Of a stretch of 64,000 nucleotides of DNA, positions 15,403-59,183 are shown in pieces. The translations under genes were made by a program, and so were the position numbers. The stretch is taken from contig CANRAG010000001.1 of assembly GCA_947628515.1 (NCBI GenBank), forward strand, positions 1-64,000. The letters run 5' to 3'. This DNA is from an uncultured Clostridia bacterium. Its GTDB lineage: Bacteria > Bacillota > Clostridia > UBA1381. The notes below the pieces were generated by a model. That model saw only the letters and a list, made by a program, of their open reading frames with translations. It made no database searches and was not told where the DNA came from. How positions within the stretch are numbered: the stretch's first letter is position 1; each line of letters starts with the position of its first letter.

Positions 15403-18400
15403 ATGAAATTAAAAAAAATTCTCACAGCTTTAATATCATTATCAATGCTCACGGGAACAATTATCTTCCCGCCGAGCACCGGCGCGGCGGATAAGCTGCC
15501 GGCGTTTCCGGGCGCGGAGGGCGGCGGAAAGTATACAACCGGAGCTAGAGGGAGCAGCTCGCAGACGGTCTATCATGTTACCAATCTCAACGACAGCGGC
15601 GCCGGCTCGCTCCGTGATGCCGTGTCCAAGTCGGGGAGAATAATAGTGTTTGACGTGGGCGGAGCGATAAATCTCACGTCGCAGCTTCAGTTAAGCAAGC
15701 CAAACATAACCATACTCGGCCAGACCGCGCCCGGCGACGGTATAACCGTTACGGGCAATGACGTGCTCATAAACGCGGACAATATCATTATCCGCTATAT
15801 CCGTGTGCGTCCCACGGACTCGCAGGGCGGCGAGCCGGACGGCATGGGCGGCAGATGGGTGCATAATATCGTGTTTGACCACTGTTCTCTTTCATGGAGC
15901 GTTGACGAAACGCTGACGCTCTATGCCGGCTCGCTTGAGGACGGCACGAACGTATCCTCAAATATCACGGTTCAGTATTGTCTGACCTCTGAGAGCATGC
16001 GGATGTCCAACCATTTCAAGGGTGCTCACGGCTACGGCGGCATAGTCGGCGGAACGAACGCGACATATTCGCATAATCTGTTCGCGCACCACGACAGCCG
16101 TAGTCCGAGGTTTGACAGAAATCTTAAATCAACGGATTTCGTAAATAACGTAATTTACGACTGGGGCAACACCAACAGCATGTACGGTGCGGAGCCGTAT
16201 TCGTATAATTCAAAGGAGCAGTATTCCAATCCGAGCTATGTTTCAAACGTGAACATACGCAACAACTACTTCAAGTACGGCGCGTCCACAAAGCCGGCGA
16301 TACGCACAAGAATATTTGACGTTACCAACGACGGGTCGGTTAAATATAACGGTTCCGTGCTTAAATCGAATTTATACATAAACGGAAACTATGTGGACGG
16401 AAGTTCGAGCGTGACGAATAATAACTCATACGGAGTAAACAATGCCGCAAACGCCAATCTGATACCGGAGCCTGTCGATATGGGCGAGTACGCGGTAGAG
16501 GAGCAGACGGCAACCGACGCGTATGAGGACGTGCTTAAAAATGTCGGCGCTACCTTGCCCAAACGCGACGCGATAGACTCGCGCGTCGTCGCGGACGTCA
16601 GAAACGGAACGGGGCGCGTAATAAACACGGACGAGGAGGTCGGGAGCCTTTCATCTATTGAAAGCGCAAGCCGAGCCTTTGTAATCCCGCAGGACTGGAA
16701 AACGGCGCACGGCATGGGAACGGCGTCGGAGACGGCAAAGGCGCCGTCGGGGTATACATGGATCGAGGAATATGCAAATGATATAGCCTCGGGCGCCGCC
16801 CCGACAAACCCCGATATTACCGTAAGCTATCCTGCCGTAGCGGACAGAAACCAAACATATGATAAAAAGAGCGAAGGCTCATGGCTCGTAACCGACGGCG
16901 CTGTAAGCTACAGCTGCCGCGCCTACGCAAAGCCGGGCACGGAAGTCACGAAAATGGAGCTTTGGGACGGTACGGAGCGTATAGCGTGGTATGACGAAGA
17001 ATCGAGCATAGACGATGAATTTACTCTCGCGCCCGGAACCCACTATCTGCGCAGCCGCGCCTATAACGACAAGGGCGAAAAAACGGACTCCGCCGTTTCA
17101 AACGTATATGTGACGTCGGGCGGACTGAATGTCAGCGAGATAGGAAAAGTACCGTTTGCAAATCACAGCGCGGCATGGCAGGACGGAAACACGACTTATA
17201 TCGCCGGCAGCGGGCTTATAAACGTCAGGGCGGACAGGTGCAGCTTTAACTATAACAAGGTAAAGGGCGATTTTGAATACACGGTTAAGATAGGCGATAT
17301 ACCCAAATATGAAAACGGAGTGCTTGCCGGAATTATGTACCGGCAAACGCTCGACGACAGTTCAAGGATGGTGATGGTGTCCGATACATGGTATAAGTAC
17401 GGCGAAAACATCGTCATACCGGTACGGGATAAGGATGGCGGCAGCGTGTCGTTTGAGTGGATGCAAGACAGCTCCGGCAAAGATATAGCGAACACATCGA
17501 GCTACGACTCCACCGATTACCCGCTGCCGAAGTATATGAGAATTTCAAGAAGCGGCGGGAAGCTTACCGTATCCGTGTCAAATAACGGCAGCTCGTGGAC
17601 AAATAACGCGCGTCAGCCGTATACGATAGATATTTCCGATTGGGGCGACGAGGGATATATAGGACTTGCATGCGACAGCGCAAACGGCGAGACGATGAGC
17701 TACCAGTCGCACACGTCCACAATTCCGGTTTTGCCGTGGTATACTATAGCGTCCTTTAAGGATGTAAACGCTGTGAACGTTGACGGCGTTCCGACGCCGC
17801 CTCCGGTAATCATTCCGGATTACGACGATCCGAACACATTGCCGACTACAAAACCGATGAGCGAAAGCATGACGGTTAATATAAGCGACTACGCGCTAAG
17901 CGGCTCCTTGCAGGAGTTTGGCAGCACAACGCTTCTGCTTGACGATTATTTGAGACTATATTCAACGAGCGGCAAGACCTCTGTAATAGAGAGCGGGTAC
18001 GAGCGGGAGTTTGACGGCGTTTCGTATCCGCTCAGGCTGCGATTTGGCGGCGGCGGCACAATATCGAACGGCATACCGCAGAACAGGGTGGCAGAGGTCA
18101 TGCCCGGATATGACGGAGTTGTAAAGGTGCATTTTGTAAATAACGGCAAAGGCATAAGGACTCTCGCGTTAATGCAGGCGGGCGAGGATATAGCGTCAAA
18201 GGACGCCAACGAGGGCGAAGCGCAAACCCTAAAAACAAATGTCAGGGGCGGACAAAGACTGTATCTGTATTCAAAGGGCAGCGCGCTCGCCATACATGCA
18301 ATAGAATACGAAGCTGAAAAGCCGACTGAAAGACCGACGGAGCAACCGACCGAAAAGCCGACGGAGCAGCCGACTGAAAAGCCTACGGAGCAGCCGACAG

Positions 18401-18597
18401 ATATGCCTACGGAGCAGCCGCAATCCTGTGTTATGATTACGGCTCACTATGGTGAGGACAATGTATTGTCAGACCTTGATATAAAGCATATGACAATAGA
18501 CGAGCTGAAAGAGGTTTCCGTGGCGGACGCGTTGACGAAGATATTCATATGGTATGATTTGGAACATATGGTACCGGTAAGAGAAGTAATCGAGTAA
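15403..18597 (+). CDS. Secreted multidomain pectate lyase (PL1), first of tandem pair
   Basis: PL1 lyase of 1064 residues acting outside the cell on pectate. Signal peptide about 1-29. The beta-helix domain (about 30-330) starts LPAFPGAEGGGKYTTGARG and includes VTNLNDSGAGSLRDAV, GQTAPGDGI, RPTDSQGGEPDGMGGRWVHN, FDHCSLSWSVDETLT and KGAHGYGGIVGG; a GYTWIEEYAN segment closes it, as in many PL1 proteins. Next come an Ig-like part, a concanavalin-like region (about 580-780, containing GIMYRQTLDDSSRMVMVSD), a beta module (about 820-965), a PTE/PTEQ linker, and the recurrent module ending FIWYDLEHMVPV. The ribosome site is weak (TTAGGA). The PL1 copy 22 bases downstream is a clear paralogue, so this looks like tandem duplication with divergent tails. 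Confidence 0.91.
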   Translation: MKLKKILTALISLSMLTGTIIFPPSTGAADKLPAFPGAEGGGKYTTGARGSSSQTVYHVTNLNDSGAGSLRDAVSKSGRIIVFDVGGAINLTSQLQLSKPNITILGQTAPGDGITVTGNDVLINADNIIIRYIRVRPTDSQGGEPDGMGGRWVHNIVFDHCSLSWSVDETLTLYAGSLEDGTNVSSNITVQYCLTSESMRMSNHFKGAHGYGGIVGGTNATYSHNLFAHHDSRSPRFDRNLKSTDFVNNVIYDWGNTNSMYGAEPYSYNSKEQYSNPSYVSNVNIRNNYFKYGASTKPAIRTRIFDVTNDGSVKYNGSVLKSNLYINGNYVDGSSSVTNNNSYGVNNAANANLIPEPVDMGEYAVEEQTATDAYEDVLKNVGATLPKRDAIDSRVVADVRNGTGRVINTDEEVGSLSSIESASRAFVIPQDWKTAHGMGTASETAKAPSGYTWIEEYANDIASGAAPTNPDITVSYPAVADRNQTYDKKSEGSWLVTDGAVSYSCRAYAKPGTEVTKMELWDGTERIAWYDEESSIDDEFTLAPGTHYLRSRAYNDKGEKTDSAVSNVYVTSGGLNVSEIGKVPFANHSAAWQDGNTTYIAGSGLINVRADRCSFNYNKVKGDFEYTVKIGDIPKYENGVLAGIMYRQTLDDSSRMVMVSDTWYKYGENIVIPVRDKDGGSVSFEWMQDSSGKDIANTSSYDSTDYPLPKYMRISRSGGKLTVSVSNNGSSWTNNARQPYTIDISDWGDEGYIGLACDSANGETMSYQSHTSTIPVLPWYTIASFKDVNAVNVDGVPTPPPVIIPDYDDPNTLPTTKPMSESMTVNISDYALSGSLQEFGSTTLLLDDYLRLYSTSGKTSVIESGYEREFDGVSYPLRLRFGGGGTISNGIPQNRVAEVMPGYDGVVKVHFVNNGKGIRTLALMQAGEDIASKDANEGEAQTLKTNVRGGQRLYLYSKGSALAIHAIEYEAEKPTERPTEQPTEKPTEQPTEKPTEQPTDMPTEQPQSCVMITAHYGEDNVLSDLDIKHMTIDELKEVSVADALTKIFIWYDLEHMVPVREVIE
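18321..18420 (+). repeat. PTEKPTEQ-coding tandem repeat linker
   Basis: Degenerate 12-base units of the form CCGACNGARMARCCG encode alternating PTEK/PTEQ units between the lyase's beta module and its C-terminal module. It is a flexible linker typical of secreted enzymes. Confidence 0.75.
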
Positions 18598-18619: not shown

Positions 18620-21073
18620 ATGAATTTAAGAAAAGCATTTGCCGCCGCGGTTTGCGCGGCGATGGTAACGGGCGCGGCGGTCGTTCCGTCGTTCGCGCAG
18701 GATAATAAGCTGCCGGCGTTTCCGGGAGTAGAGGGCGGCGGAAAATACACAATGGGCGCGCGCGCGAACGATACGGTTGAGGTATACCATGTAACAAACC
18801 TCAACGACGACGGCGACGGCTCGCTTCGCGACGCCATTTCAAAGTCGGGAAGAATAGTCGTGTTCGATGTCGGCGGCATAATAGAGCTGAAATCAAGACT
18901 TGATTTCACGCAGCCGAATATCACCGTGTTGGGGCAGACCGCGCCCGGCGACGGCATAACGATAACCAATTACGATTCGGTGATTAAAGCCGACAATATA
19001 ATCATACGCTATCTGCGTATCCGTCCGACCGATTCGCAGGGCGGCGAGCCGGACGGGCTTGGCGGGAGATGGGTGCATAATATCGTGCTTGACCACTGTT
19101 CCGTGTCGTGGGGAGTTGACGAAATGCTCACTTTGTATTCGGGCTCGCTGGAGTCACGGGAGGATGTTTCGCAAAATGTTACGGTTCAGTATTGCTTAAG
19201 CTCGGAAAGTCTGCGAATGTCCAGCCACATAAAGGGCGCGCACGGCTACGGCGGCATTGTGGGCGGCACCGATGCGACATGGCATCATAATCTGTGGGCG
19301 AACCACGACAGCCGTAACCCGCGCTTTGACCGTAACCTTAAAAATACCGACGTCGTAAACAATGTGATATACAACTTCGGCAATAATATTATGTACGGCG
19401 CGGAGCCGTACTCCTACGGAAAGAAGGAGGACTTTTCAAAGCCGGAGTACGTGTCAAATATAAATATAAGAAACAATTATATAAAGAGCGGCCCGTCGAC
19501 AAAGCCGGAGATCCGCTCGAAGATTTTCGAGGCCACAAACGACGGAAGCGTCACATATAACGGCGAGCCGTTGAAATCGAACGCGTACATAAGCGGAAAC
19601 TATGTTTACGGAAACGAGGCCGCGACAAAGAATAACACCGCATCGGAAGAACAGGTTGTGAATATGGGTATGTTAAACATCCTTTCGGAGCCTGTTGATA
19701 TGAACGGATACGATATTGATATGCAGACGGCGGAGCAGGCGTACGAGACGGTTATGGAAAACGTGGGCGCGACCTTGCCGAGGCGTGACGCGATTGATGC
19801 GCGGGTTATCGCGGATGTGAAGAACGGCACGGGCAGGATTATCAATCAGGAGGAGGAAGTAGGCGGCTTTGTAAGCATAGACAGGGCGGAGCGCGTCTTT
19901 GAAATTCCGTCCGACTGGAAGGCAGAGCACGGCATGGGCGACGCTAAGGAAAGCGATATAGCGCCGTCGGGCTATACATGGATCGAGGAATACGTAAACG
20001 AGTGGACAGCGGCGCAGGAAAAGCCGACCAATCCCGAAATACAGGTTATATCGCCCGCCACGGCGTCAACCGACAAGACAATGGATAAGACCGGCGGCAA
20101 GGGGTTCTGGCTTGTGACGGATAAGGCGTTCGAGTATGAAGCAAAGGCCGACGCGGGCACGGAGAAGATAGAGATATACGATAGAACCGATAAGCTTTAC
20201 GCGGCGGAGGGCAGCGAGGTTAAAACCAAGCTTGAACTGAACAAGGGCACGCATTATATAACGGCTTTGGCATATAACGGCAAGGGCGAAAAGACCACAT
20301 CCGATACCGCTATTGTATATGTAACGGGCGGAGACGCAATCACGGAGATAGGCTCTGTGGCGTATGAGGGTAAGAGCCGGGCGTGGGTTGCGGACGGCAG
20401 GCGCTATATCGCCGGAAGCGGAAAGATAGGCGGAACGTCGGATTCGTTCAGTTTCGATTATGAAAAGAAGAACGGTGATTTTATATATACGGTAAGAATA
20501 GACGAAATTCCGAAATATGAAAACGGCCCGCTCGCGGGCATAATGGTTCGCGACGGGCTTGACGCGGACGCGAGAATGGTCATGCTCTCCGACACATGGA
20601 AGAAGTATGGTGAGAACATAATCGTGCCCGTGCGAAAAGAGAAGGGCGCCGAGCTTGAAACTCTGTATCTTACAAAGGAGGACGGCAGCGAGGTGTCAAA
20701 CGAGAGCAGCTATGATACGGAAAAGTATCCGATGCCGAGGTATATGCGGATTGAGCGGAAAGGGAACGAGCTTATTCTTTCCGTATCCGACAGCGGTCTG
20801 AACTGGACGGATAACGTGCGCCGTCCTATGCGGATAGATATATCGGGCTGGAGCGACGAGCTGTGCGTCGGGCTCGCGGTGGACTCGCAGAACGAGCTTA
20901 GCAAGGAGGCGTCGCCTATGCTGCCGTGGTTTACCATAGCGGCGTTCACGCGTATGAGGGATGTGCCTGTTACGGTAACGGCGCAGTATGACGGAGCGGG
21001 CGCACTCATAGGAACTGTAACGTCGGATACGCCGCCGGAAAACACAGAGGGCAAAAAGATATTCGTATTCTGA
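18620..21073 (+). CDS. Secreted pectate lyase (PL1), second of tandem pair
   Basis: PL1 paralogue of the gene upstream, 817 residues, start ATG 18620 after GGAAGGAG. Signal peptide about 1-27. The catalytic domain shows PAFPGVEGGGKYTMGARAN, VTNLNDDGDGSLRDAI, GQTAPGDGITI, LDHCSVSWGVDEMLTLY and the conserved NHDSRNPRFDRNLKNTD block, with the GYTWIEEYVNEW closing segment. It keeps the Ig-like and concanavalin-like regions (GIMVRDGLDADARMVMLSD). It lacks the beta module and PTE linker of its neighbour, and its final copy of the recurrent module is shortened, stopping after GKKIFVF instead of continuing through a W..LE.M.PV ending. I found no frameshift that would restore the tail. Product specificity may differ from the first copy, but that cannot be read here. 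Confidence 0.91.
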   Translation: MNLRKAFAAAVCAAMVTGAAVVPSFAQDNKLPAFPGVEGGGKYTMGARANDTVEVYHVTNLNDDGDGSLRDAISKSGRIVVFDVGGIIELKSRLDFTQPNITVLGQTAPGDGITITNYDSVIKADNIIIRYLRIRPTDSQGGEPDGLGGRWVHNIVLDHCSVSWGVDEMLTLYSGSLESREDVSQNVTVQYCLSSESLRMSSHIKGAHGYGGIVGGTDATWHHNLWANHDSRNPRFDRNLKNTDVVNNVIYNFGNNIMYGAEPYSYGKKEDFSKPEYVSNINIRNNYIKSGPSTKPEIRSKIFEATNDGSVTYNGEPLKSNAYISGNYVYGNEAATKNNTASEEQVVNMGMLNILSEPVDMNGYDIDMQTAEQAYETVMENVGATLPRRDAIDARVIADVKNGTGRIINQEEEVGGFVSIDRAERVFEIPSDWKAEHGMGDAKESDIAPSGYTWIEEYVNEWTAAQEKPTNPEIQVISPATASTDKTMDKTGGKGFWLVTDKAFEYEAKADAGTEKIEIYDRTDKLYAAEGSEVKTKLELNKGTHYITALAYNGKGEKTTSDTAIVYVTGGDAITEIGSVAYEGKSRAWVADGRRYIAGSGKIGGTSDSFSFDYEKKNGDFIYTVRIDEIPKYENGPLAGIMVRDGLDADARMVMLSDTWKKYGENIIVPVRKEKGAELETLYLTKEDGSEVSNESSYDTEKYPMPRYMRIERKGNELILSVSDSGLNWTDNVRRPMRIDISGWSDELCVGLAVDSQNELSKEASPMLPWFTIAAFTRMRDVPVTVTAQYDGAGALIGTVTSDTPPENTEGKKIFVF

Positions 21074-24557: not shown

Positions 24558-26156
24558 CTATTTCAAAGCGGCGGCGCCGATGATACCCGCATCGTTTTTC
24601 AACTCCGCAATTTTAACCGCGGAAAACGGCGCGAGTCTCTTGTTGAGCGGGATAATAAGATTATCTCCTTCATTTGATATCCCGCCCGAAATGAGCACGG
24701 TCTGAGGATCAAATATTTTTATAAGATTATTCAGTCCCGCAGCGAGATAATTAAAGTAATTATCAAGCACCTCCCGCGCGGTTTCACAGCCCATATCCGC
24801 CGCCTTGAATGCTGTTTTTCCGCTTATTGCGCTCTCTCTGCACAGTTTACCGAGAATGCTTTCGGGATGAGCTTTTGCCGCAGCGGCAGTCTGATTTTTA
24901 AGAGCTGTAACGGATGCGTATTGCTCCCAGCAGCCATGTCTGCCGCACGGACATTCAATACCGTTAATATCTATGCACATATGTCCGACTTCACCTGCCG
25001 CGCCGCAGCCGGAATAGATTTTGCCGTTCATTATAATTCCGGCGCCTATACCCGTACCGATTGTGACAAGCAGCATATTTTCGGCTCCCGCGCCCGCTCC
25101 GGCAATCTGTTCACCAAGCGCTGCGCAGGCGGCGTCGTTTTCAACCGAAACAGGGAGCTTAACCCTGCTTGACAATTCATCCGCAAGCCTGAAACCGCAG
25201 AACGGAAGATTGGTCGCCCAAACCTTGCCATGGGCTATAATTCCGGGAGTACCCACTCCGATTGACTGTACATCATAGCGCGCGGCAAAATCAAGACATA
25301 CCTCCGCCATAGCGTCCGTAATATCCTCCGCAGTCTGCCCGGCGGTAATTTCAACATCACAGCGGTCGATAATTTCATTATTATCAACAACGCCGATTTT
25401 TGTACTCATACCTCCTATATCTATACCGATATGAATATCGGAATATGCCGCGCTGTCGCATATAAGCGTGAAATCGGGGTGCATTTTGAGCATGGTTGCC
25501 GGGTTGTCGGTAGTTATGCCGTTCGAAAGCAGCTCTTTAATCGCATTATGCTTTGAATGTCCGGAGGCGAGAAGAATAATTTTTTTTGAGCTCATTATAG
25601 TGGATATTCCCATTGTAAGCGCATGTGTGGGCACCTTATCGCTGCTTTCGAAAAAACGTGAGTTAGCGTCAATAGTATCGGATGAGAGCGCGGTAATATG
25701 CGTTTTTGTGTTAAGCCGATCTCCGGGCTCGTTAAAGCCTATATGACCGTTGCGCCCTATACCGAGAATTTGCAAATCAACGCCGCCGTGGCGTGCAATC
25801 TCTTTTTCGTAAGCTTCACATTCAGCGGCAGGATTTGTAGTCTCACCGTTGGGAATATGTATTCTTGAAGCGTCTATATTTATTTTGCCAAACAGATTAT
25901 TGTTCATAAATGTGTGATAGCTCTGTTCATTGTCCTGTGAAATCGGATAATATTCGTCAAGGTTAAAGGTTGTAACCTGTGAGAAATCAATTTCGCCTTT
26001 GCTGTACATATCCGCAAGACAGTTATACATTCCAATCGGCGTGGAGCCGGTTGCGAGACCGAGAACAGAATTCGGTTTTCCGTTTATCTGCCTCTTAAAA
26101 ATTTCAGCGGCTTTTACGGATACTTCATCATAGTCTTTGCAAATTATAACATTCAT
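24558..26156 (-). CDS. Fusion: glucosamine-6-phosphate deaminase (NagB) + ROK sugar kinase
   Basis: Cytosolic 532-residue protein joining two amino-sugar enzymes. Residues about 1-240 are NagB, converting glucosamine 6-phosphate to fructose 6-phosphate and ammonia: GLATGSTPIGMY phosphate loop, FNLDEYYP with Asp67, and GIGRNGHIGFNEP with Asn136, His138 and Glu143 (the Asn form is usual in Bacillota). Residues about 241-532 are a ROK kinase: GIDIGGMSTKIGVVD ATP loop, catalytic Asp341 in ENDAACAALGEQ, GTGIGAGII, and the zinc site His392 plus CPCGRHGC (Cys402, 404, 409). No stop or frame change separates the halves. ROK kinases act on GlcNAc, ManNAc or glucose; GlcNAc fits best because NagA is encoded at 30.1 kb. 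Start ATG 26156 has AGGAG. Last gene of a three-gene operon. Confidence 0.93.
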   Translation of the reverse strand: MNVIICKDYDEVSVKAAEIFKRQINGKPNSVLGLATGSTPIGMYNCLADMYSKGEIDFSQVTTFNLDEYYPISQDNEQSYHTFMNNNLFGKINIDASRIHIPNGETTNPAAECEAYEKEIARHGGVDLQILGIGRNGHIGFNEPGDRLNTKTHITALSSDTIDANSRFFESSDKVPTHALTMGISTIMSSKKIILLASGHSKHNAIKELLSNGITTDNPATMLKMHPDFTLICDSAAYSDIHIGIDIGGMSTKIGVVDNNEIIDRCDVEITAGQTAEDITDAMAEVCLDFAARYDVQSIGVGTPGIIAHGKVWATNLPFCGFRLADELSSRVKLPVSVENDAACAALGEQIAGAGAGAENMLLVTIGTGIGAGIIMNGKIYSGCGAAGEVGHMCIDINGIECPCGRHGCWEQYASVTALKNQTAAAAKAHPESILGKLCRESAISGKTAFKAADMGCETAREVLDNYFNYLAAGLNNLIKIFDPQTVLISGGISNEGDNLIIPLNKRLAPFSAVKIAELKNDAGIIGAAALK

Positions 26157-26185: not shown

Positions 26186-27235
26186 CTATCCTATAGTGCG
26201 CAGGTCAAAGATTTTCTCTATTTCGCTTACAAGTTTAAGCTGGGTTCTGCACCGCACAAGATTATGCTGCGGATATTTCGTTTTAAAGTATGTATCACCG
26301 GAGAGATAATCGGTCAGAAATCTCATGCCGCATTCGATTGTCATTAAATACGCGCTGTATGGCATAAGGTCCGTTTCGGCGGGAGTAACCGCGTCGCCCA
26401 TAGCGCGGATGAAACCGTTCTTGTACGCGTTATAGAGATTGATATCAAAATGTACTTTTGCCGTATCCGGCTCATCCTCCTCGGCAGTGGACGCTCCAAA
26501 TCGGATTGAGTCACCGAAATCGTAGAGCAGAGAGCCGGGCATTACCGTATCAAGATCAATAATTGCTTTTGTTTTTCCGGTATCCGAATCAATAAGAATA
26601 TTATTCAACTTTGTATCGTTGTGTGTTACGCGCAGCGGTATCCTGCCTTCGCGTATACTATCGGTAAGTCTTGAAAGACTGTTTCTTCTCTGTAAAATAA
26701 AATCCGCTTCCTCAATGCAGGATTTCAGCCTTCCGTATCTGTCGGCATTGCAGCTTTTGAGAAAGTCATTAAACCTTTTGGGTGTATTGTGGAAATCGGG
26801 TATGATTTCATGCAGCGATGACGCGTTAAAATCAGCCAAATGCTTTTGGAAGCTGCCGAATGCAAATCCTGATTCCTCAAAGACCTCCACGCTTTCCGAC
26901 ACCTGATATGTTACGGAATTTTCAATAAAAGCATACATTCTGAAATATTGGCTGTTTATTTCGGTAAAGGCTCTGCCGTCTGAGGTTCTTATTACTTCAA
27001 GCGTGGTAACACCTTTCTTTATGAGGAAGTCCGTTACATTTACGATATTTTCCATAAGCTTATCCACATCAGGGAAAACCTTTGTATTTATCTGCTGTAG
27101 GATATATCTTTTTTCTTTTGTCGTCACGAGAAAGGTTACATTAATATGTCCTTTGCCGTAGGGCTGTATGGATGTAACTTCATTATGCGGGATAAAGTCA
27201 ATTAATAAATCCTCAAATTCAATCATATAGTCCAT
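26186..27235 (-). CDS. Phosphotransferase, N-acetylhexosamine 1-kinase (NahK)-like
   Basis: APH-fold kinase of 349 residues, probably cytosolic. Motifs: an N-terminal nucleotide-binding lobe (GKGHINVTFLV, then YILQQINTKVF), the catalytic loop THNDTKLNNIL and the metal-binding IDLDTVMPGSLLYDFGDS. These are close to the bifidobacterial NahK pattern, an enzyme that phosphorylates GlcNAc or GalNAc at C1. The pairing with the nucleotidyltransferase upstream supports a hexosamine-1-phosphate to UDP-sugar route, which would deal with GalNAc from chondroitin. The start overlaps the upstream gene by 17 bases; an alternative ATG lies at 27226. Homoserine or choline kinase relatives share the fold, so specificity is inferred from motifs plus context. 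Confidence 0.8.
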   Translation of the reverse strand: MDYMIEFEDLLIDFIPHNEVTSIQPYGKGHINVTFLVTTKEKRYILQQINTKVFPDVDKLMENIVNVTDFLIKKGVTTLEVIRTSDGRAFTEINSQYFRMYAFIENSVTYQVSESVEVFEESGFAFGSFQKHLADFNASSLHEIIPDFHNTPKRFNDFLKSCNADRYGRLKSCIEEADFILQRRNSLSRLTDSIREGRIPLRVTHNDTKLNNILIDSDTGKTKAIIDLDTVMPGSLLYDFGDSIRFGASTAEEDEPDTAKVHFDINLYNAYKNGFIRAMGDAVTPAETDLMPYSAYLMTIECGMRFLTDYLSGDTYFKTKYPQHNLVRCRTQLKLVSEIEKIFDLRTIG

Positions 27236-28067
27236 TTCCGATGTATTCTCCTATCTTGTCTTTTATAGCTGCCATATCCTCGCGGTATGTTATGCCGTAC
27301 CATTTGCTGCCGCTTTCAAAAACCTTGACAGACGCGAAGCCCTTGGCAATCATATTCCGGACAGCCGAAGGGATGAAGAACTCATCCTTCATAAGGTCGG
27401 CGGTTTTTGTAAATACTTCAAACTCCTCTGCCAACTCATCAAAAATATCGGGAGTAAAGCCCCATAAATTCATTGAAACCGGAGTATCGGCAGCAAGCTG
27501 AATTATATTTCCGTTAAGGTCTGATTTCATATCAGTATTAATTTTTGTATGCTCGGTAATATTTTTAAGGAAGCCGTTCTCTATCTCACATACACCTCTT
27601 GAAACCGTTCCGTTCTCACTCAATGTGTTTTTAAGTCTGTATGCCGTCATTGCGTATTCTCCCGGACGGGCGCTTTGGAGATGGCGGCATATATCAAAAA
27701 ATGCGTCTGTTCCGTAATAATCATCGGCATTGATTACCGCAAACGGAGTTTTTACCGTGTCACGGCAACACAAAATCGCGTGCGCTGTTCCAAACGGCTT
27801 CGTTCTCCCTTCGGGGAGAGAAGATGTGTCCTGGATAACATACTCGGTATCGATCTGCTTTTCAATTCTGTGTCCGACAAGTTTTATGAAATCCTCCTTC
27901 ATATCCTCTCTAAGTATAAACACAGCTTTGTCAAAGCCCGCCTTTTTTGCATCGTACACGGAAAAATCCGGTATGCTTCTTCCATCGTCGCTGACAGGTT
28001 CAGCCTGTTTCAGCCCTCCGAACCTGCTGCCCATTCCGGCAGCCATTACAACAAGCGCAGCATTCAT
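27219..28067 (-). CDS. Sugar-phosphate nucleotidyltransferase
   Basis: Rossmann-like nucleotidyltransferase of 282 residues. The signature AAGMGSRFGGLKQ at residues 9-21 binds the nucleotide triphosphate; later motifs include FGTAHAILCC and the metal-binding NADDYYG. Members make NDP-sugars from sugar 1-phosphates. In this operon it precedes a NahK-like kinase, so the likely substrate is a HexNAc 1-phosphate, but sequence alone does not fix the base or sugar. ATG 28067 follows GAAGGTG. First gene of the minus-strand salvage operon, divergent from the aldose epimerase-like gene. The ending (LYD) overlaps the kinase start, implying translational coupling. Confidence 0.85.
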   Translation of the reverse strand: MNAALVVMAAGMGSRFGGLKQAEPVSDDGRSIPDFSVYDAKKAGFDKAVFILREDMKEDFIKLVGHRIEKQIDTEYVIQDTSSLPEGRTKPFGTAHAILCCRDTVKTPFAVINADDYYGTDAFFDICRHLQSARPGEYAMTAYRLKNTLSENGTVSRGVCEIENGFLKNITEHTKINTDMKSDLNGNIIQLAADTPVSMNLWGFTPDIFDELAEEFEVFTKTADLMKDEFFIPSAVRNMIAKGFASVKVFESGSKWYGITYREDMAAIKDKIGEYIGNGLYD

Positions 28068-28270: not shown

Positions 28271-29128
28271 ATGATGAAACAAGTGAGAATTTCAAACGAA
28301 ATTGCAGAGGCGGTTATATCAGAGCTGGGAGCGGAAATAAAAAGTCTGAAAAAGAACGGGCGCGAAATAATATGGGAGGGTGATCCGTCCGTATGGGAAG
28401 GACAGGCGCCGTTTTTGTTCCCCATATGCGGGGGTCTCAGGGACAACAGGTATATTCTTAATAACAGGGAATATCACCTTGAGAAGCATGGCTTTGCAAG
28501 TAAAATGCAATTTGATATCGAAAGTCAATGTGAAAATGCCGTGACATTTTTACTGAAGGATATGCCGGAAACTTTGGAATGTTTTCCCAATACCTTTGAA
28601 TGTAGAGTCACATACAGAATTATTGAAACCGGACTGGCAATAACCTACGATGTAAAGAATACGGACATTAAAACGATGTATTTCTCAATGGGTGCGCATG
28701 AGGGATATGTCTGTCCGGAGGGCATAGAGGAATACAGCATTGTATTTGAGCATAACGAAAGGCTTGAAACCGCGCTTCTCGACGGCGGTTATCTTGGGCA
28801 TGATACCTGTGTGCTTGCGGAGAATGCGCGCGAGCTGCCGCTGAAATATGAGTATTTTTTTAATGATAATTCGTTGGTATTTACACAGCTGCGGTCGAGA
28901 AAGGTATCATTAATACATAAAAGCGGCGAAAAATGTATTTCGGTACATTTTAACGGTTTTGAATGTTTGCTTCTGTGGACTGTGCCGGAAGCCGGATATA
29001 TTTGTATTGAACCCTGGTGCGGTATTCCGGATTATGCTGACAGTGATTATGATATTACTCGCAAAAAGGGTATAATGACACTAAAGTCCGGAGAGCGCTG
29101 CATACGGCAGCATACGATAATATTTTAG
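28271..29128 (+). CDS. Aldose 1-epimerase family protein (LacX/YihR type)
   Basis: Galactose mutarotase-like beta-sandwich of 285 residues, cytosolic, without signal peptide. Family landmarks: APFLFPICGGLRDN, the histidine in EKHGFASKMQF, the second histidine in MGAHEGYVCPEG, and the glutamate in YICIEPWCGIPD that acts as base. Members interconvert alpha and beta anomers of free sugars. In this context it may prepare hexosamines for kinases, which is inference. GAGGAAG precedes the two ATG codons at 28271 and 28274. Ends with TAG. It is divergent from the salvage operon and followed by an AraC gene with its own promoter. Confidence 0.83.
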   Translation: MMKQVRISNEIAEAVISELGAEIKSLKKNGREIIWEGDPSVWEGQAPFLFPICGGLRDNRYILNNREYHLEKHGFASKMQFDIESQCENAVTFLLKDMPETLECFPNTFECRVTYRIIETGLAITYDVKNTDIKTMYFSMGAHEGYVCPEGIEEYSIVFEHNERLETALLDGGYLGHDTCVLAENARELPLKYEYFFNDNSLVFTQLRSRKVSLIHKSGEKCISVHFNGFECLLLWTVPEAGYICIEPWCGIPDYADSDYDITRKKGIMTLKSGERCIRQHTIIF

Positions 29129-29162: not shown

Positions 29163-29197
29163 CATTACCGCAAATATAATTTAAAGAGGTGTTCGCA

Positions 29198-30091
29198 GTG
29201 GATACTTTTGAAAGAACAGAGTTAAATAAAGCTTTTGACGTTTCGTCGGTGATAACTATTCATTACTTTGAGCATAGCAGAGATTATGTTTTTCAAGGTG
29301 AGAGCCATAATTTCTGGGAAATGGCTTATGCCGACAGGGGCGATGTCTTGGTTTACTTTAATGGTGAATGGCATACATTGAAGCCGGGTTATGCCGTCTT
29401 CCACAGACCGATGCAGTTCCATAATCTGAAAGCGGATGGGCATACAGCGCCCAATGTTATAGTGGTATCATTTGACTGCGACAGCGGACTGATGGATTTT
29501 TTCAACGATAAAATACTTTATGTACCGCAGCAGGCGAAGGATAAGATTAAGGATATTATACGCTGCGCGGGGCAGGCGTTTACCACCCGTCTTGACGACC
29601 CGTATACAAAGAAGCTTGTAAAGAGCGGTAATATTGCGGCGGAACAGTATATATCGCTGTATCTTGAAGAATTACTGCTTTCTTTATATACGCATTACAG
29701 CGGAGCGGCGGACACCAAAAAGAACAAACTCAACAGTACGGTTTCCGTAATGAACACCGTATTTGAAAGAGCAACCGCCTATATGCGCGAAAATACGAAC
29801 AAAAATCTTACAATAGATGCTATAAGCCGCGCCTTGCATATAAGTCGTTCAGAGTTAAAAAGAGTATTTCGGGAATATACGGGTCTGGGCGTGATTACCT
29901 ATTTCAGGAATATGCGCATAGAGCATGCGAAAACACTCATACGCGACGGAGGAATGAATATAACAGAGATTGCGGAGCGTATGGGCTATGAGTCAATACA
30001 TTGCTTTTCAAAACAGTTTAAGAATGTGGTCGGTATGTCGCCGCGGGAGTACTCGTTGTCGATAAAAATGTGGATAGACGACAGCAAATAA
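29198..30091 (+). CDS. AraC-family regulator adjoining nagA
   Basis: Regulator of about 297 residues. The sensor domain begins ITIHYFEHSRDYVFQGESHN and includes FWEMAYADRGDVLVYFNGEW and FHRPMQFHNL, a cupin with several histidines. The C-terminal HTH pair is LTIDAISRALHISRSELKRV and the second ending IHCFSKQFKNVVGMSPREYS. GTG 29198 is chosen because AGAGGTG at 29186-29191 lies seven bases upstream; an in-frame GTG at 29189 would overlap that site. It is a paralogue of the AraC protein at 32.4 kb, sharing the layout HYFE....Y.F.GESH.FWE through the whole sensor. It lies 18 bases before nagA in what looks like a two-gene unit, suggesting control by an amino sugar or GAG fragment. Confidence 0.9.
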   Translation: MDTFERTELNKAFDVSSVITIHYFEHSRDYVFQGESHNFWEMAYADRGDVLVYFNGEWHTLKPGYAVFHRPMQFHNLKADGHTAPNVIVVSFDCDSGLMDFFNDKILYVPQQAKDKIKDIIRCAGQAFTTRLDDPYTKKLVKSGNIAAEQYISLYLEELLLSLYTHYSGAADTKKNKLNSTVSVMNTVFERATAYMRENTNKNLTIDAISRALHISRSELKRVFREYTGLGVITYFRNMRIEHAKTLIRDGGMNITEIAERMGYESIHCFSKQFKNVVGMSPREYSLSIKMWIDDSK

Positions 30092-30109: not shown

Positions 30110-31168
30110 ATGAGATCAGTATTTAAAAATCTTTGTATTAACGGAAAGGTTACCGACATAATTTCGGAAAACGGTATAATATCGGCGGTATGCCCGTGCG
30201 GGGAAGCAGGTGTTGATTTTTGCGGAAAACGGGCGTATGCGGGCCTTATAGATATTCATACCCACGGCATAGGCGGTATGGATACGATGGATGCCGATTT
30301 CGGACTTATGGCTAAGCTGTATGCAGCAAACGGCACAACTACCTTTTATCCCACAACAATGACGGCTTCTCATAAGAGCATAGCTAAAGTGCTGAGCGCG
30401 CCAATACCTGAAAAAGGCGCCCGAATAGGCGGGTTCCATCTTGAGGGTCCGTACATAAACGCAAAATACAAGGGCGCGCAGAATAAAGAATATGTGCGGC
30501 GCCCCGATATGTCGGAATTTGCGGATTATGATAATATAAAGCTTATTACGCTTGCGCCGGAGCTTGACGGAGCGATTGAATACATAAATGCCTTTGGCGG
30601 CGTGGTATGTCTGGGTCATACGGACGCGGATTATGATACCGCCGTTAATGCCGCCCGCGCCGGGGCAAAATGTCTTACGCATACATTTAACGCAATGCCT
30701 CCGCTTCACCACAGAAGTCCGTCGCTGATAGGCGCGGCGGCGGATTTTGATATGTATGTTCAGGTAATATGCGACGGAAAGCATATACATCCGGCTGTTA
30801 TACGGATACTTTACAGACTGTTCGGACCGGAGCGGATGATATTGATAAGCGATTCGATGCGCGCGACGGGACTGCCGGACGGAGTTTATGAATTGGGCGG
30901 ACAGACTATTACGGTTAAGGAAAAAACCGCGAGAACCGCTGACGGCGCTTTGGCGGGCAGCACTTCGTCGCTTTTTGAATGTGTGAGGCGCGCGGTGGAT
31001 TTCGGTATACCTGAGCCGGAGGCGTTTAAAATGGCGTCCGAAACCCCGGCACGGTTGATGGGGCTTAAACGCGGTATTATTAAATCCGGCTATGACTGCG
31101 ATTTGATTGTACTTGACGACAAAAACGAAATAGATACCGTTATTATTAACGGTAATATACAGTCGTGA
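30110..31168 (+). CDS. nagA: N-acetylglucosamine-6-phosphate deacetylase
   Basis: Amidohydrolase-fold enzyme of 352 residues that deacetylates GlcNAc 6-phosphate in the cytoplasm. Metal and substrate motifs: DIHTHGIGGMDT, HLEGPYINAKYKGAQN, CLGHTDADYDTA, LTHTFNAMPPLHHR, ICDGKHIHP and the catalytic aspartate in LISDSMRATGLPDG, then GALAGSTSSL. Spacing after the AraC gene is 18 bases with AGAGAGG as ribosome site. Its product is the substrate of the NagB half of the fusion at 24.6-26.2 kb, so the two genes complete GlcNAc to fructose 6-phosphate if the ROK half phosphorylates GlcNAc. The end faces the TauE/SafE gene; no obvious terminator lies in the 22 bases between. Confidence 0.95.
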   Translation: MRSVFKNLCINGKVTDIISENGIISAVCPCGEAGVDFCGKRAYAGLIDIHTHGIGGMDTMDADFGLMAKLYAANGTTTFYPTTMTASHKSIAKVLSAPIPEKGARIGGFHLEGPYINAKYKGAQNKEYVRRPDMSEFADYDNIKLITLAPELDGAIEYINAFGGVVCLGHTDADYDTAVNAARAGAKCLTHTFNAMPPLHHRSPSLIGAAADFDMYVQVICDGKHIHPAVIRILYRLFGPERMILISDSMRATGLPDGVYELGGQTITVKEKTARTADGALAGSTSSLFECVRRAVDFGIPEPEAFKMASETPARLMGLKRGIIKSGYDCDLIVLDDKNEIDTVIINGNIQS

Positions 31169-33320: not shown

Positions 33321-34934
33321 ATGAAAAAAACGAACCTTTTAAGAGTTGTATCGCTTACAACGGTCCTTGCGCTTGCCGCAGCGGCTGTGTCAGGCTGCGG
33401 GAAATCGAACACGGCAAGCGAGCACGGGAGCGGAGTAACTCTTTCAGACGGCGAGTCTGTTTATCCCGTTAAGTCCGACGACACTCTTACGGTATGGGTA
33501 GCGCTTAACGACCAGGCAAAGCAGAACTACACGAACATGGCGGAGACTCCGTTCGGCAAGGCGTGGCTTGAGAAGACGGGCGTGAACATCAAGTTCATTC
33601 ATCCGACATCCGGCAATGTCTCGGAGCAGTTCAATCTGCTTACCGTTTCAAAGGATATGCCCGATGTAATTCTCTATGACTGGTACAATGTATCGGGAGG
33701 ACCTCAGAAATATATTGACGATGGAACCATACTTCCTCTCAATGATATTATAGACAAGTATTCGCCTAATTTTAAGGCATATCTTGAGGAAAATCCGGAT
33801 GTCGCCAGAGCTGTAAAAACGGACGAGGGCAATTATTATGTATATCCGTTTATAAGAGGCGACGAGAAGCTGACCGTATCCTGCGGCCCAATAGTCAGGA
33901 AGGATATTCTCGATGAATACGGGCTTAAGGTTCCCGAAACCATAGACGAGTGGTACAATACGTTAAAAACCTGCAAGGAGCACGGAACCGCAACGCCCTT
34001 ATCGTTCCTGTTCAAATTCGAAAAGAACGGCGTATTCTCCGGTGCATACGGATGCCCGAACAGCTTTTTCCTTGACGACGACGGCAATGTGCAGTACGGG
34101 CCCGCGCAGGACAGCGCGAAGGATTATCTTGCGGAGATGAACAAATGGTACAAAGAGGGGCTGCTCGATAATAACATATCAAGCCTTGAGCAGACCGATA
34201 TTGACTCAAGATTTCTCACCGGAGATGTTGTGGCAAGCATCGGCTATGCCGGATCGAGCATCGGAACCTATCTGACAAACGAAAAGAACTCAAATCCTTC
34301 GTTTAATGTTGAGGCGGCGCCTAATCCGGTCCTCAAAAAGGGCGAGAAATCCGACTTCGGACAAAAGGACAATATATATGTTCCGCAAAATTCGGCAGCT
34401 ATCACAGCAAGCTGTAAAAATATTGAGCTTGCCGCAAGATTTCTTGATTATGCCTATAGTGAGGAGGGATCTCTTCTGCTCAATTTCGGCATAGAGGGAG
34501 AAAGCTATGAGATGACCGAGGACGGTCCCGTTTATACGGATCTTATAACAAACAATCCCGACGGACTTACCATGTCGCAGGCGCTTTCGCACTATATGAT
34601 GCTCGGCAGCGGTCCGTATGTTCAGAATGTACAATATATAGACCAGTATTATCAGTATGACCAGCAGAAGAACGCGCTTAAAATATGGAGCGACACCAAC
34701 GCCGCCGCGCACAAGCTTCCCCAGACAACCTTTACCTCAGAGGAAAGCAAGTCGGCAGCTACAATAACAAATAATCTTTCCACCTATGTAGACGAGATGT
34801 GGATGAAATTTATAACGGGCATTGAACCTCTGGATAAGTTTGATGAGTATCAGGCGCAGCTTAAGCAGCTCGGACTGGAGGAAGTTCTCGGCTATTACGA
34901 TGCCGCTCTTAAGAGATATAACAAGAGAAATTAA
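33321..34934 (+). CDS. ABC transporter solute-binding lipoprotein (LplA type)
   Basis: Extracellular substrate-binding lipoprotein of 537 residues. The signal sequence ends in the lipobox AAVSGCG near Cys27, giving lipid anchoring to the outer face of the membrane. The mature part begins with a DTLTVWVAL strand typical of family 1 solute-binding proteins, and contains VSKDMPDVILYDWYN and a long C-terminal domain with IYVPQNSAAIT. Its size and partners match the large LplA/YtcQ group that serves complex oligosaccharides. Two permease genes follow within 11 bases each; no ATPase is encoded nearby, so a shared MsmX-type ATPase elsewhere is expected. Ligand is probably an unsaturated GAG oligosaccharide (inference from the operon). 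Confidence 0.92.
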   Translation: MKKTNLLRVVSLTTVLALAAAAVSGCGKSNTASEHGSGVTLSDGESVYPVKSDDTLTVWVALNDQAKQNYTNMAETPFGKAWLEKTGVNIKFIHPTSGNVSEQFNLLTVSKDMPDVILYDWYNVSGGPQKYIDDGTILPLNDIIDKYSPNFKAYLEENPDVARAVKTDEGNYYVYPFIRGDEKLTVSCGPIVRKDILDEYGLKVPETIDEWYNTLKTCKEHGTATPLSFLFKFEKNGVFSGAYGCPNSFFLDDDGNVQYGPAQDSAKDYLAEMNKWYKEGLLDNNISSLEQTDIDSRFLTGDVVASIGYAGSSIGTYLTNEKNSNPSFNVEAAPNPVLKKGEKSDFGQKDNIYVPQNSAAITASCKNIELAARFLDYAYSEEGSLLLNFGIEGESYEMTEDGPVYTDLITNNPDGLTMSQALSHYMMLGSGPYVQNVQYIDQYYQYDQQKNALKIWSDTNAAAHKLPQTTFTSEESKSAATITNNLSTYVDEMWMKFITGIEPLDKFDEYQAQLKQLGLEEVLGYYDAALKRYNKRN

Positions 34935-34945
34935 GGAGTGGAGCT

Positions 34946-35899
34946 ATGCGGAACGTAAAAAATAATATCAGCAAGCCCCGATACAGCAAGCCGTTTTCCG
35001 TCAGGCTCAAGGCGGATTTCAGAAGGAACAAGGAGCTATATCTCCTTCTGATTCCGCTTATCGCGTTCTATATAATTTTCAAATATGTGCCGATGTACGG
35101 CTCGGTAATAGCGTTCCAGGACTTCTCGCCGCGTCTTGGGATTACGGGCAGCGATTGGGTGGGCTTTAAGAATTTTATAGACTTTTTCTCGGACAAGAGT
35201 TTTATAAGAATTCTGAAGAACACGGTTATTATAAGCTTTTCCAGTCTGATATTCTGTTTCCCCGCGCCGATTATATTCGCTTTGCTGATGAATGAACTGA
35301 GAAGCAAGATATTTACAAGAAGCGTACAGACCATTACATATCTGCCGCACTTTATTTCTATGGTTGTTATATGCGGCTTAATAAGAAGATTTACCGTGGA
35401 TACAGGCTTTATAAACGATATAATTGCTTTTTTCGGGGGAACAAGGTCAACGATGCTCAACAATCCGAAGCTGTTTGTTCCGATTTATATTATATCTGAG
35501 ATATGGCAGGGACTCGGATGGGGCTCGATAATATATCTCGCGGCGCTTACCGGAGTGGATCAGCAGCTGTACGAGGCGGCGATGATAGACGGAGCGGGAA
35601 GATGGAAGCAGACGCTGCATGTTACGATACCTGCAATTATGCCGACAGTGGTAATTATGTTTATTCTGAAAATAGGAAACATTCTCAATGTGGGCTATGA
35701 GAAGATAATATTACTGTATAACCCGCTCACCTATGAGACAGCCGACGTAATATCTTCATTTGTTTACAGAAAGGGACTTCTTGAACAGAATTGGGGCTAC
35801 AGCGCGGCTGTGGGAATGTTCAACTCGGTAATCAATTTCATATTGCTTATCGCAGCCAACAAGCTGAGTAAAAAATACACGGAAACAAGTTTGTGGTAA
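34946..35899 (+). CDS. ABC transporter permease (LplB type)
   Basis: Inner-membrane permease of 317 residues with about six hydrophobic segments. N-terminal part: LYLLLIPLIAFYIIFKYVPM and GSVIAFQDFSPRLGI, typical of LplB. The conserved EAA-type cytoplasmic loop that contacts the ATPase is YEAAMIDGAGRWKQTLHVTI. GGAGTGGAG precedes ATG 34946. Forms the translocation pore with the next gene's product for the sugar bound by the lipoprotein. Spacing of 11 bases on both sides indicates co-transcription. Confidence 0.93.
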   Translation: MRNVKNNISKPRYSKPFSVRLKADFRRNKELYLLLIPLIAFYIIFKYVPMYGSVIAFQDFSPRLGITGSDWVGFKNFIDFFSDKSFIRILKNTVIISFSSLIFCFPAPIIFALLMNELRSKIFTRSVQTITYLPHFISMVVICGLIRRFTVDTGFINDIIAFFGGTRSTMLNNPKLFVPIYIISEIWQGLGWGSIIYLAALTGVDQQLYEAAMIDGAGRWKQTLHVTIPAIMPTVVIMFILKIGNILNVGYEKIILLYNPLTYETADVISSFVYRKGLLEQNWGYSAAVGMFNSVINFILLIAANKLSKKYTETSLW

Positions 35900-35910
35900 G
35901 GAGGAAGTTT

Positions 35911-36789
35911 ATGCGCAGACATACAAGAGGAGAAAATATTTTTAATATTTTCGATATAGTGATAATGGTTGTGCTTATGGTACTGACACTTTATCCGCTG
36001 CTTTATGTGGTGTTCGCATCCTTCTCGGACGGAACAAGGCTTATGCGTTTCAGCGGTCTTTTGACGCATCCTCTGGGCTTCAGTCAGGCGGCGTACAAGT
36101 CGGTGTTTGCCAATCCTAACATAATGCACGGCTATGCGAACACTCTTATTCTCGTTGTTGCGGGAACGGCGATGGGCGTGATTTTGACCGTGATAGGAGG
36201 ATACTGTCTTTCGAGAAAGAATATGATGTGGCGCAACACGATAATGCTTGCCATAACATTTACCATGTTTTTTAACGGCGGTCTTATCCCGACATATCTG
36301 AATGTACAGAGACTGGGGCTGCTCGACACCCTTGCGGCGATATTACTGCCGACAGCAATCAACACCTTTAACCTTATAATAATGCGTACGGCGTTTCTGT
36401 CCATACCGGACAGCCTTGTGGAATCGGCGGAGCTTGACGGGGCAAATCAGCTTATTATTCTGTTCAGAATAGCGCTGCCTCTCGCGCTGCCGACGGTTAT
36501 GGTAATCGTGTTATACTATGCTGTTGAGAGATGGAATGAATGGTTTAACGCGATGATATATCTTCAGGACGCAAAGAAATTCCCCCTTGCGCTGGTGCTA
36601 AGAGAAATACTCATTCAGGAAAGCACAAGCTCAATGACGCAGGATGTCGGCGTGGGCGACAAGGAGAGCGTATCTCTGAGCATAAAATATGCTGTAATTG
36701 TGGTTGCCACACTGCCGATACTGGTACTCTATCCTTTCCTGCAAAAATACTTTGTAAAGGGAGTTATGGTAGGCGCGGTAAAGGGATGA
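35911..36789 (+). CDS. ABC transporter permease (LplC/YtcP type)
   Basis: Second pore subunit, 292 residues. The EAA loop reads VESAELDGANQLIILFRIAL. N-terminal segment VLMVLTLYPLLYVVFASFSD and six hydrophobic helices are visible. ATG 35911 is preferred: AAGGAGG at 35899-35905 lies just upstream, and the alternative in-frame start at 35893 would overlap the previous gene's end. The C-terminus FLQKYFVKGVMVGAVKG is the family hallmark. It completes the importer; the ATPase is missing from the window. Confidence 0.93.
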   Translation: MRRHTRGENIFNIFDIVIMVVLMVLTLYPLLYVVFASFSDGTRLMRFSGLLTHPLGFSQAAYKSVFANPNIMHGYANTLILVVAGTAMGVILTVIGGYCLSRKNMMWRNTIMLAITFTMFFNGGLIPTYLNVQRLGLLDTLAAILLPTAINTFNLIIMRTAFLSIPDSLVESAELDGANQLIILFRIALPLALPTVMVIVLYYAVERWNEWFNAMIYLQDAKKFPLALVLREILIQESTSSMTQDVGVGDKESVSLSIKYAVIVVATLPILVLYPFLQKYFVKGVMVGAVKG

Positions 36790-36829
36790 CGTGCCTGTGC
36801 GGCAATCAGGGAAAGGAAATAGTGATGCA

Positions 36830-51410: not shown

Positions 51411-52619
51411 ATGACAGTTTTTAAAGAAGCTCTTAAGCTTGACTGGAAGGCTCTCGCAGCCGAAATAGATAATCAAGTGTTTGCCAAAACGCTTGATCAT
51501 GCCGTTAAAAAGGTATCGGACAATCTGATACCTTTTACCGGCAAATTTCCGTCGTCGGGCGGAGTGAACGGAGTGTATCAGCCCACGGAAAACGCGGATG
51601 AATTTCTTTATTCCGATTGGACCAGCTCCTTCTGGACAGGTATGATATGGATTTGCTATGAGCTCACCGGTGACAGTCGTTTTAAGGAAACCGGACTGTC
51701 GCACAGCGCAAGCTTCCGCGAACGGTATGATAAAAATATTATTCTCGATCATCACGACATAGGCTTTTTGTTTACGCTTTCCTGTGTCGCGGCATATAAA
51801 ATTACCGGCGATGAATTTTCGCGCGAGACGGCTCTGCTTGCCGCGCGCAAGCTTGCAAGCCGTTTTCGCGACAAAGCGGGGATTATTCAGGTAAGAGGCA
51901 GACTTGACGATATGGAGAATGAAGCGCTCGGCGAGTTTATCATAGACTGCTGCATGAACCTGCCGTTACTGTATTGGGCGGCTCGGGAGACGGGCGACAG
52001 AAGCTTTTCGGACAAGGCGTATTCGCATATAAAGAACGTGCAGAAATACATGGTTAGACCCGACGCTTCGACATATCAGAATTTCCGAAAGGATATTGCC
52101 ACAGGCGCGCCTATAGGCGGCTGGATCGCTCAGGGCGACTCTCATGACGGCGCCTGCTGGTCGCGGGGACAGGCATGGGCGATGTACGGTCTGCCTTTAA
52201 GTTATAATTATACCGGAGACGCAACGCTGCTTGAAACGTGCAAAGCGGTAAGCAATTATTTTCTTAACCGTCTGCAATCGGATTTAGTGCCGAACTGGGA
52301 TTTCTATTATAAGACAGACGAGGATCAGCGCGACACCTCAGCCTCCGCCGTTGCGGCATGCGGACTGCTGGAACTGGCGAGAAATCTTCCCGTTACCGAT
52401 TCGGACAGGGAAGTCTACGAGGCTGCCGCAAAGACTCTTATATACGCGCTTATAAAGAATTATCTTTATTGTGACGGGGAAAGTCCGAACGCGATTTTGA
52501 AATCGGGTGTTTACGCAATGCGTACAAATCTTTGCGTTGACGAGCCGGTAATATGGGGAGATTATTTCTTCATGGAGGCGCTGCAAAGACTTACTCATTA
52601 TTACCGGTCATTCTGGTAG
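51411..52619 (+). CDS. Unsaturated glucuronyl hydrolase (GH88)
   Basis: Cytosolic GH88 enzyme of 402 residues with no signal peptide. It removes the 4,5-unsaturated uronic acid that lyases leave on GAG fragments, releasing 4-deoxy-5-keto-uronate and an amino sugar. The alpha/alpha barrel shows DWTSSFWTGMIWICYE, LDHHDIGFLF with Asp116, EFIIDCCMNLPLLYWAA with Asp179, and ACWSRGQAWAMYGL; the two aspartates match the known catalytic pair. ATG 51411 has GGAG eleven bases upstream. Located between secreted proteins and PL8 lyases, it acts after import. GH105 enzymes share the fold but the HHDIGF and CWSRGQAW motifs favour GH88. Stop is TAG. Confidence 0.93.
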   Translation: MTVFKEALKLDWKALAAEIDNQVFAKTLDHAVKKVSDNLIPFTGKFPSSGGVNGVYQPTENADEFLYSDWTSSFWTGMIWICYELTGDSRFKETGLSHSASFRERYDKNIILDHHDIGFLFTLSCVAAYKITGDEFSRETALLAARKLASRFRDKAGIIQVRGRLDDMENEALGEFIIDCCMNLPLLYWAARETGDRSFSDKAYSHIKNVQKYMVRPDASTYQNFRKDIATGAPIGGWIAQGDSHDGACWSRGQAWAMYGLPLSYNYTGDATLLETCKAVSNYFLNRLQSDLVPNWDFYYKTDEDQRDTSASAVAACGLLELARNLPVTDSDREVYEAAAKTLIYALIKNYLYCDGESPNAILKSGVYAMRTNLCVDEPVIWGDYFFMEALQRLTHYYRSFW

Positions 52620-57654: not shown

Positions 57655-57671
57655 AAGGATGCAGCGGAGTA

Positions 57672-59162: not shown

Positions 59163-59183
59163 GAAAGACGGTGACAATGCAGC

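Follow-up and report, generated by a model that had tools for sequence, protein, structure and literature searches.

One gene in the 64 000-nucleotide stretch of DNA analysed here (the window) encodes glucosamine-6-phosphate deaminase (NagB) and a ROK-family kinase as a single polypeptide. It lies on the minus strand (24558–26156) and consists of one open frame of 532 amino acids (P0001). With a probability of roughly 0.6, the product is a cytoplasmic, bifunctional enzyme of N-acetylglucosamine (GlcNAc) catabolism, in which a GlcNAc kinase is joined to a glucosamine-6-phosphate (GlcN-6-P) deaminase. Both domains are classic, and the fusion is of a known kind, the bifunctional sugar-catabolic fusion. 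A first-pass annotation had placed a NagB–ROK polypeptide at exactly these coordinates, and both Pfam domains score above cut-off. It had not recorded that the architecture is old and conserved, that NahK and a nucleotidyltransferase belong to the operon or that a glycosaminoglycan locus adjoins it. The features of the region are as follows.

24561–25436, minus strand: ROK kinase half of the fusion, residues 241–532 (PF00480, 205 bits; best solved relatives 3vgk and 2qm1)
25437–26156, minus strand: NagB half of the fusion, residues 1–240 (TIGR00502, 296.8 bits; best solved relative 2bkv)
26186–27235, minus strand: NahK-like N-acetylhexosamine 1-kinase, same operon, upstream of the fusion (phmmer, 401.8 bits to the NahK 4ocj)
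27219–28067, minus strand: nucleotidyltransferase, first gene of the operon (PF00483; 240.9 bits to 3pnn, an uncharacterised protein)
28271–29128, plus strand: aldose 1-epimerase family gene, divergent (PF01263)
29189–30091, plus strand: AraC-type regulator (PF12833, PF02311)
30110–31168, plus strand: NagA, N-acetylglucosamine-6-phosphate deacetylase (TIGR00221, 274.3 bits against a cut-off of 225.65)
33321–36789, plus strand: carbohydrate ABC transporter, binding protein and two permeases (profile matches)
36791–61819, plus strand: glycosaminoglycan locus (Pfam matches)
36791–39790, 52654–55095 and 55102–57654, plus strand: three PL8 lyases (Pfam)
51411–52619, plus strand: GH88 (Pfam)
57651–60704, plus strand: two sulfatases (Pfam)
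60701–61819, plus strand: radical SAM/SPASM protein (Pfam)

The fusion frame contains neither stop nor frameshift and its ATG is preceded by GGAG, a Shine-Dalgarno-like motif. The plus strand of the same interval, read in frame 1, has numerous stops. A full-length NagB (residues 1–240) is followed by a full-length ROK kinase (residues 241–531) with almost no linker. The join is abrupt (CDSAAYSDIHIGIDIGG): in an AlphaFold2 model of the 532 residues (mean pLDDT 91, pTM 0.72) the last NagB helix spans residues 235–238 and the first ROK strand residues 241–247. Each half is predicted to form a complete fold. Residues 1–240 were superposed on the monomeric NagB of Bacillus subtilis (2bkv) with a VIA-align Z of 39.4 and an rmsd of 1.1 over 240 residues, and residues 240–532 on the Streptomyces griseus glucokinase (3vgk) with a Z of 35.4 and an rmsd of 2.0 over 291. 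Purifying selection acts strongly on each half, and the fusion is retained in dozens of related bacteria of gut type. Between genomes G000 and G042, dN was 0.090 and dS 0.93 for the NagB half (dN/dS about 0.10), and dN was 0.105 and dS 1.22 for the ROK half (about 0.09).

The NagB half was matched by PF01182 (Glucosamine_iso; residues 15–224, 85.8 bits, above cut-off) and by the NCBIfam equivalog TIGR00502 (nagB; residues 1–241, cut-off 236.9 bits). It aligns end to end with the B. subtilis enzyme at 47–48% identity, the kinase domain being absent from the latter. Equivalents of Escherichia coli NagB D72, H143, E148, R172 and K208 are all present. The catalytic residues of the E. coli enzyme (D72, H143, E148, and D141 or Asn) correspond to D67, H138, E143 and N136; Asn occupies the D141 site in all 35 fusions examined, the window protein included, and likewise in the aligned B. 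subtilis sequence. All 35 fusions keep counterparts of D72, H143 and K208, along with the Asn at the D141 site; counterparts of E148 and R172 are kept in 33/35, the losses being in genomes G358 and G440. NagB activity thus stands as the predicted function of the N-terminal half. The fusions of G358 and G440, which belong to another family (loci L192, 8502–10109, and L193, 8678–10285), and also that of locus L073, read FNNP for FNEP, so that the catalytic Glu is lost; the R172-equivalent Arg is lost in them too. In the G358 and G440 proteins the NagB half may be dead and the ROK half alone active.

In the other half, PF00480 (ROK) matches residues 243–531, covering profile positions 2–290 of 294. 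The zinc motif CxCGxxGC of ROK proteins is formed by C402, C404 and C409 with H392; these residues and the catalytic D341 are invariant in 27 of 27 rows. The ROK NagKs of Plesiomonas shigelloides (PsNagK, 7p7i) and E. coli, which catalyse the reaction proposed here, share D6, N104, D105, T132, E154 and H157 with the window protein, and equivalents of all six were found in 34/34 fused ROKs. They differ from the window protein by their distance in sequence and by two substitutions: D187 of PsNagK is Glu in all 34 fused ROKs, and T10 is Met in the window protein.

By its family class, the ROK half appears closer to glucokinases than to known NagK. Its best family model is the glucokinase TIGR00744, at 207.7 bits and thus below the cut-off of 260.35. 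The NagK model PRK13310 (NF009835) gave 99.5 bits, far under its equivalog cut-off of 380, and the NanK profile gave 120 bits against 283. Among solved chains, the ROK glucokinases scored highest (3vgk, S. griseus GlkA, 158 bits; 2qm1, Enterococcus faecalis, 138 bits), compared with 84.9 bits for PsNagK. These glucokinases have the same family and fold as the window ROK half but differ from it in the sugar-site loop and in not being fused to NagB. The ROK half might then be a glucokinase or broad hexokinase that was fused to NagB by chance and allows the glycolytic entries of glucose and amino sugars to be co-expressed. We regard this as improbable: the score falls short of the cut-off, the fusion genomes retain a separate glucokinase-like gene, and the fused clade does not have the Asn-Asn-[IL]-x-Met loop that many of these paralogues share. 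At the site of the sugar-contacting S78 of NagK, 33/34 fused ROKs have A, S, T, V or I, whereas 18/21 glucokinase-like paralogues of fusion genomes have Asn. This site is not decisive, because the S78A change raises the rate of PsNagK (excerpts of PMC10031466) and because even the glucokinases of E. faecalis and S. griseus (GlkA) have different residues at it.

Upstream of the fusion, the nucleotidyltransferase and NahK genes overlap by 17 nt, and 29 nt separate NahK from the fusion. The nucleotidyltransferase is probably a sugar-1-phosphate uridylyltransferase. Solved N-acetylhexosamine 1-kinases match the NahK gene product at about 400 bits, and such kinases are similarly active on GlcNAc and GalNAc, according to the part of PMC6264712 consulted. 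NagA, correctly located at 30.1 kb by the first-pass annotation, is on the strand opposite to the fusion in the window and is its immediate neighbour in most relatives. Among 27 fused family loci, the window counted, NahK was present in 19, NagA in 21 and the nucleotidyltransferase in 9, all of them lower bounds because many contigs are short. The fusion is thus usually in an operon with NahK and NagA.

These neighbours also bear on the reading of the ROK half as a glucosamine kinase, in which the fusion would join the consecutive steps GlcN to GlcN-6-P to fructose-6-P. Consecutive-step fusions are the classical kind (excerpts of PMC4921024), and a glucokinase-like enzyme could take a sugar with a 2-amino group more readily than one with the bulkier N-acetyl group. 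However, NagA accompanies the majority of the fused loci, the window neighbours act on N-acetylated sugars, and the residue at the S78 site is small, as in NagK. A glucosamine kinase is therefore unlikely.

The plus-strand locus is a likely source of GlcNAc and GalNAc. One of its PL8 lyases is chondroitinase-ABC-like; SLH-domain proteins also occur between 33321 and 61819, in what is a Clostridia-type MAG. A general tie of the fusion to glycosaminoglycan lyases was rejected, PL8 being present in 5/26 fusion genomes, and the pairing is local to the window. A tie to lacto-N-biose phosphorylase was likewise rejected: GH112 occurs in the genome of the window, but in 7/26 fusion genomes against 40/70 overall (matches above cut-off). 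Elsewhere on the plus strand, two adjacent genes (15403–18597 and 18620–21073) encode large secreted paralogues with very similar N-terminal halves. They look pectate-lyase-like by eye, and one has a PTEQPTEKP repeat.

The gene content of the window's genome was then considered, absences being read from a MAG that is 99.6% complete in 224 contigs. PTS EIIC had no match in this genome, so GlcNAc should enter unphosphorylated; the argument is limited to this genome because 20/26 fusion genomes have some PTS EIIC. Three ROK matches were obtained, namely the fusion and a single glucokinase-like gene that is interrupted by contig ends. BadF-family matches fell in a 1436-amino-acid frame (two matches) and a 729-amino-acid frame (below cut-off), lengths that seem unlike those of GlcNAc kinases. 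The genome search returned no stand-alone NagB, no AgaS and no NanE above cut-off (one 20-bit, sub-cut-off match lies in a 496-amino-acid frame). A ManNAc kinase role for the ROK half and a GalNAc-6-phosphate route via AgaS were therefore both rejected for this genome as unlikely. In Bifidobacterium, no enzyme is known for the conversion of GlcNAc-1-P into GlcNAc-6-P, as far as the consulted portion of PMC9599254 goes, so NahK would have to be complemented by a 6-kinase. Since NagA and NagB are present and this activity is missing, the ROK half is its natural candidate and, from context, plausibly the best one in the genome. The earlier proposal that one polypeptide carries steps 1 and 3 of GlcNAc catabolism thus holds for NagB and is plausible by context for the kinase, but the sequence class of the ROK half does not support a NagK.

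In the scheme that we favour, a bifunctional GlcNAc kinase and GlcN-6-P deaminase, the ROK half would use ATP to phosphorylate the 6-OH of imported or released GlcNAc. The separate NagA would then deacetylate GlcNAc-6-P, and the NagB half would convert GlcN-6-P into fructose-6-P and ammonia by deamination and isomerisation. NahK and the nucleotidyltransferase would form an anomeric-phosphate branch leading from GlcNAc or GalNAc through the 1-phosphate to UDP sugars. In the window's genome, the sugars would probably be released from glycosaminoglycans by the adjoining PL8/GH88/sulfatase locus. The selected benefit would most likely be fixed 1 : 1 co-expression, or entry–exit coupling around NagA, and not the hand-over of an intermediate. 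A more elaborate version, which we find doubtful, would make the fusion and NagA a three-step GlcNAc assembly: the ROK half would feed NagA and the NagB half would drain it, keeping the GlcNAc-6-P and GlcN-6-P pools low, while sugar or ATP occupancy of the ROK half, which takes the place of the C-terminal segment of NagB, might in addition gate the deaminase.

Several observations go against the GlcNAc-kinase reading. The sequence is glucokinase-like and far below the NagK cut-off, Met250 stands in place of the phosphate-binding Thr, and NahK already phosphorylates GlcNAc, at a different position. In addition, NagA is encoded on the opposite strand in the window, and the three enzymes therefore do not share a single operon there.

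Met250 also qualifies the first-pass statement that both halves keep their catalytic residues, which is right for the acid/base and metal residues and wrong for the phosphate-coordinating Thr. This Thr (T10 of PsNagK, in the DxGGT motif) is Thr in 27 of the 34 fused ROKs, Met in 6, the window protein among them, and Ser in 1. According to excerpts of PMC10031466, PsNagK cannot do without D6 or D105, and its T10V variant has a kcat of 12.5 per s instead of 202, a drop of about 16-fold. Because the T10V enzyme retains part of its activity, the Thr is not strictly required for ROK membership, and the exception at Met250 could matter for the rate. A weak or inactive kinase that acts as a sugar sensor, regulates NagB and replaces the C-terminal segment of longer NagBs would also account for Met250 and for a junction directly after the last NagB helix, and ROK proteins such as Mlc and NagC are often sensors. 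But the catalytic base, the metal Asp and the sugar-binding and zinc residues are all retained and most fused ROKs keep the Thr, which makes this reading very unlikely.

The Bifidobacterium nagK-nagR-nagB-nagA cluster brings together the same three activities as proposed here, with a separate N-acetylhexosamine 1-kinase, LnpB, but its nagK (ROK) and nagB are separate genes (PMC9599254, in the part consulted). The large survey PMC4921024 is in line, in the excerpts consulted, with the first-pass view that consecutive steps are the usual partners in a fusion; it also describes fusions located at branch points or linking the subunits of a complex. The word 'glucosamine' is absent from its main text. 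Among the matches listed, no description of a NagB–ROK fusion was found in the open-access full-text literature; UniProt or InterPro may well list the architecture unstudied. Human GNE (UDP-GlcNAc 2-epimerase/ManNAc kinase) is likewise a fusion of an amino-sugar enzyme to a ROK kinase, with a different partner enzyme. GNE joins consecutive steps, which the window fusion would not do on the GlcNAc reading.

If the GlcNAc reading is true, the two fused steps are non-neighbouring. Such a fusion, kept for long across several families, would test why enzymes fuse without direct transfer of an intermediate. It would also put forward a specific protein as candidate GlcNAc 6-kinase in Clostridia that have NahK and lack PTS uptake, where this activity is missing, and a 6-kinase in the ROK half would close the path by which glycosaminoglycans of host or dietary origin reach glycolysis. 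The fusion itself is a functional clue, connecting with amino sugars a ROK subfamily that otherwise resembles glucokinases.

Distribution was scanned at E-value limits of 1e-120 or 1e-140, so the counts may leave out divergent fusions. Within the order, 26/95 genomes have a total of 27 full-length fusions, all inside the family of the window (70 genomes), and none in the 25 genomes scanned from the other families. An even draw from the class gave the fusion in 12/391 genomes, 5 of the 12 belonging to three other families. An even draw of 398 genomes from the phylum gave it in the window's own genome and in none of the other 397. The 80 relative loci contained at least four fusions (L071–L074), from MAGs that are labelled as Ruminococcus or as Clostridia; goat or water buffalo caecum was the source of two of these. 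Genomes G205, G290 and G440 encode the same proteins as L071, L072 and L073 and are probably the same records. Genome G103, with an estimated completeness of 100%, has two copies of the fusion. Two copies apiece were seen in three genomes: G059 (contigs C136 and C137), G103 (contigs C38 and C5) and G047 (contigs C180 and C130/C89).

An artefact of assembly or annotation that merged two genes of an operon, which the first-pass annotation had named as a way in which its reading could fail, has practically no chance of being the explanation: nagB and ROK are indeed separate in two genomes (G036 and G034) and a TAG stands at the junction codon in G050, but the 27 stop-free full-length frames of one family and the further copies in three other families amount to dozens of independent occurrences. 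The TAG of G050 (locus L056, about 310–318; equivalent to window Tyr238) could be a true stop, a sequencing error or a readthrough codon.

In a tree of ROK sequences, in which 21 paralogue rows were hand-picked from search matches, the fused ROKs formed a 31-row clade (support 98/89) with two split and two single genes. Glucokinase-like paralogues from these genomes fall outside the clade, as do the NagKs of E. coli and P. shigelloides. The split genes are those of G036 and G034, where nagB and ROK overlap by 4 nt. A quick NagB tree placed the NagBs of these two genomes outside the fused clade; the likelihood rose when they were constrained to lie within it (p-AU 0.948), which permits secondary fission but does not prove it. 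In the NagB tree, 34/35 fused NagBs group with three stand-alone NagBs. The exception, L074, has no clear grouping with other fusions in either tree and may be an independent fusion event. The stand-alone NagBs L075 and SOLO_G048 nest in the fused NagB clade, which suggests that their ROK half was lost. The simplest reading of these trees would be one old fusion followed by several splits or losses, with perhaps one independent fusion (L074). An apparently single ROK gene, G047b, belongs to a second fusion that is truncated where its contig ends, and the single-ROK gene G059x also nests in the fused ROK clade. In G059, the single ROK gene of locus L174 (3394–4389) has a short N-terminal tail, DEAVYSDAR, that resembles the end of NagB; it is perhaps the relic of a former fusion.
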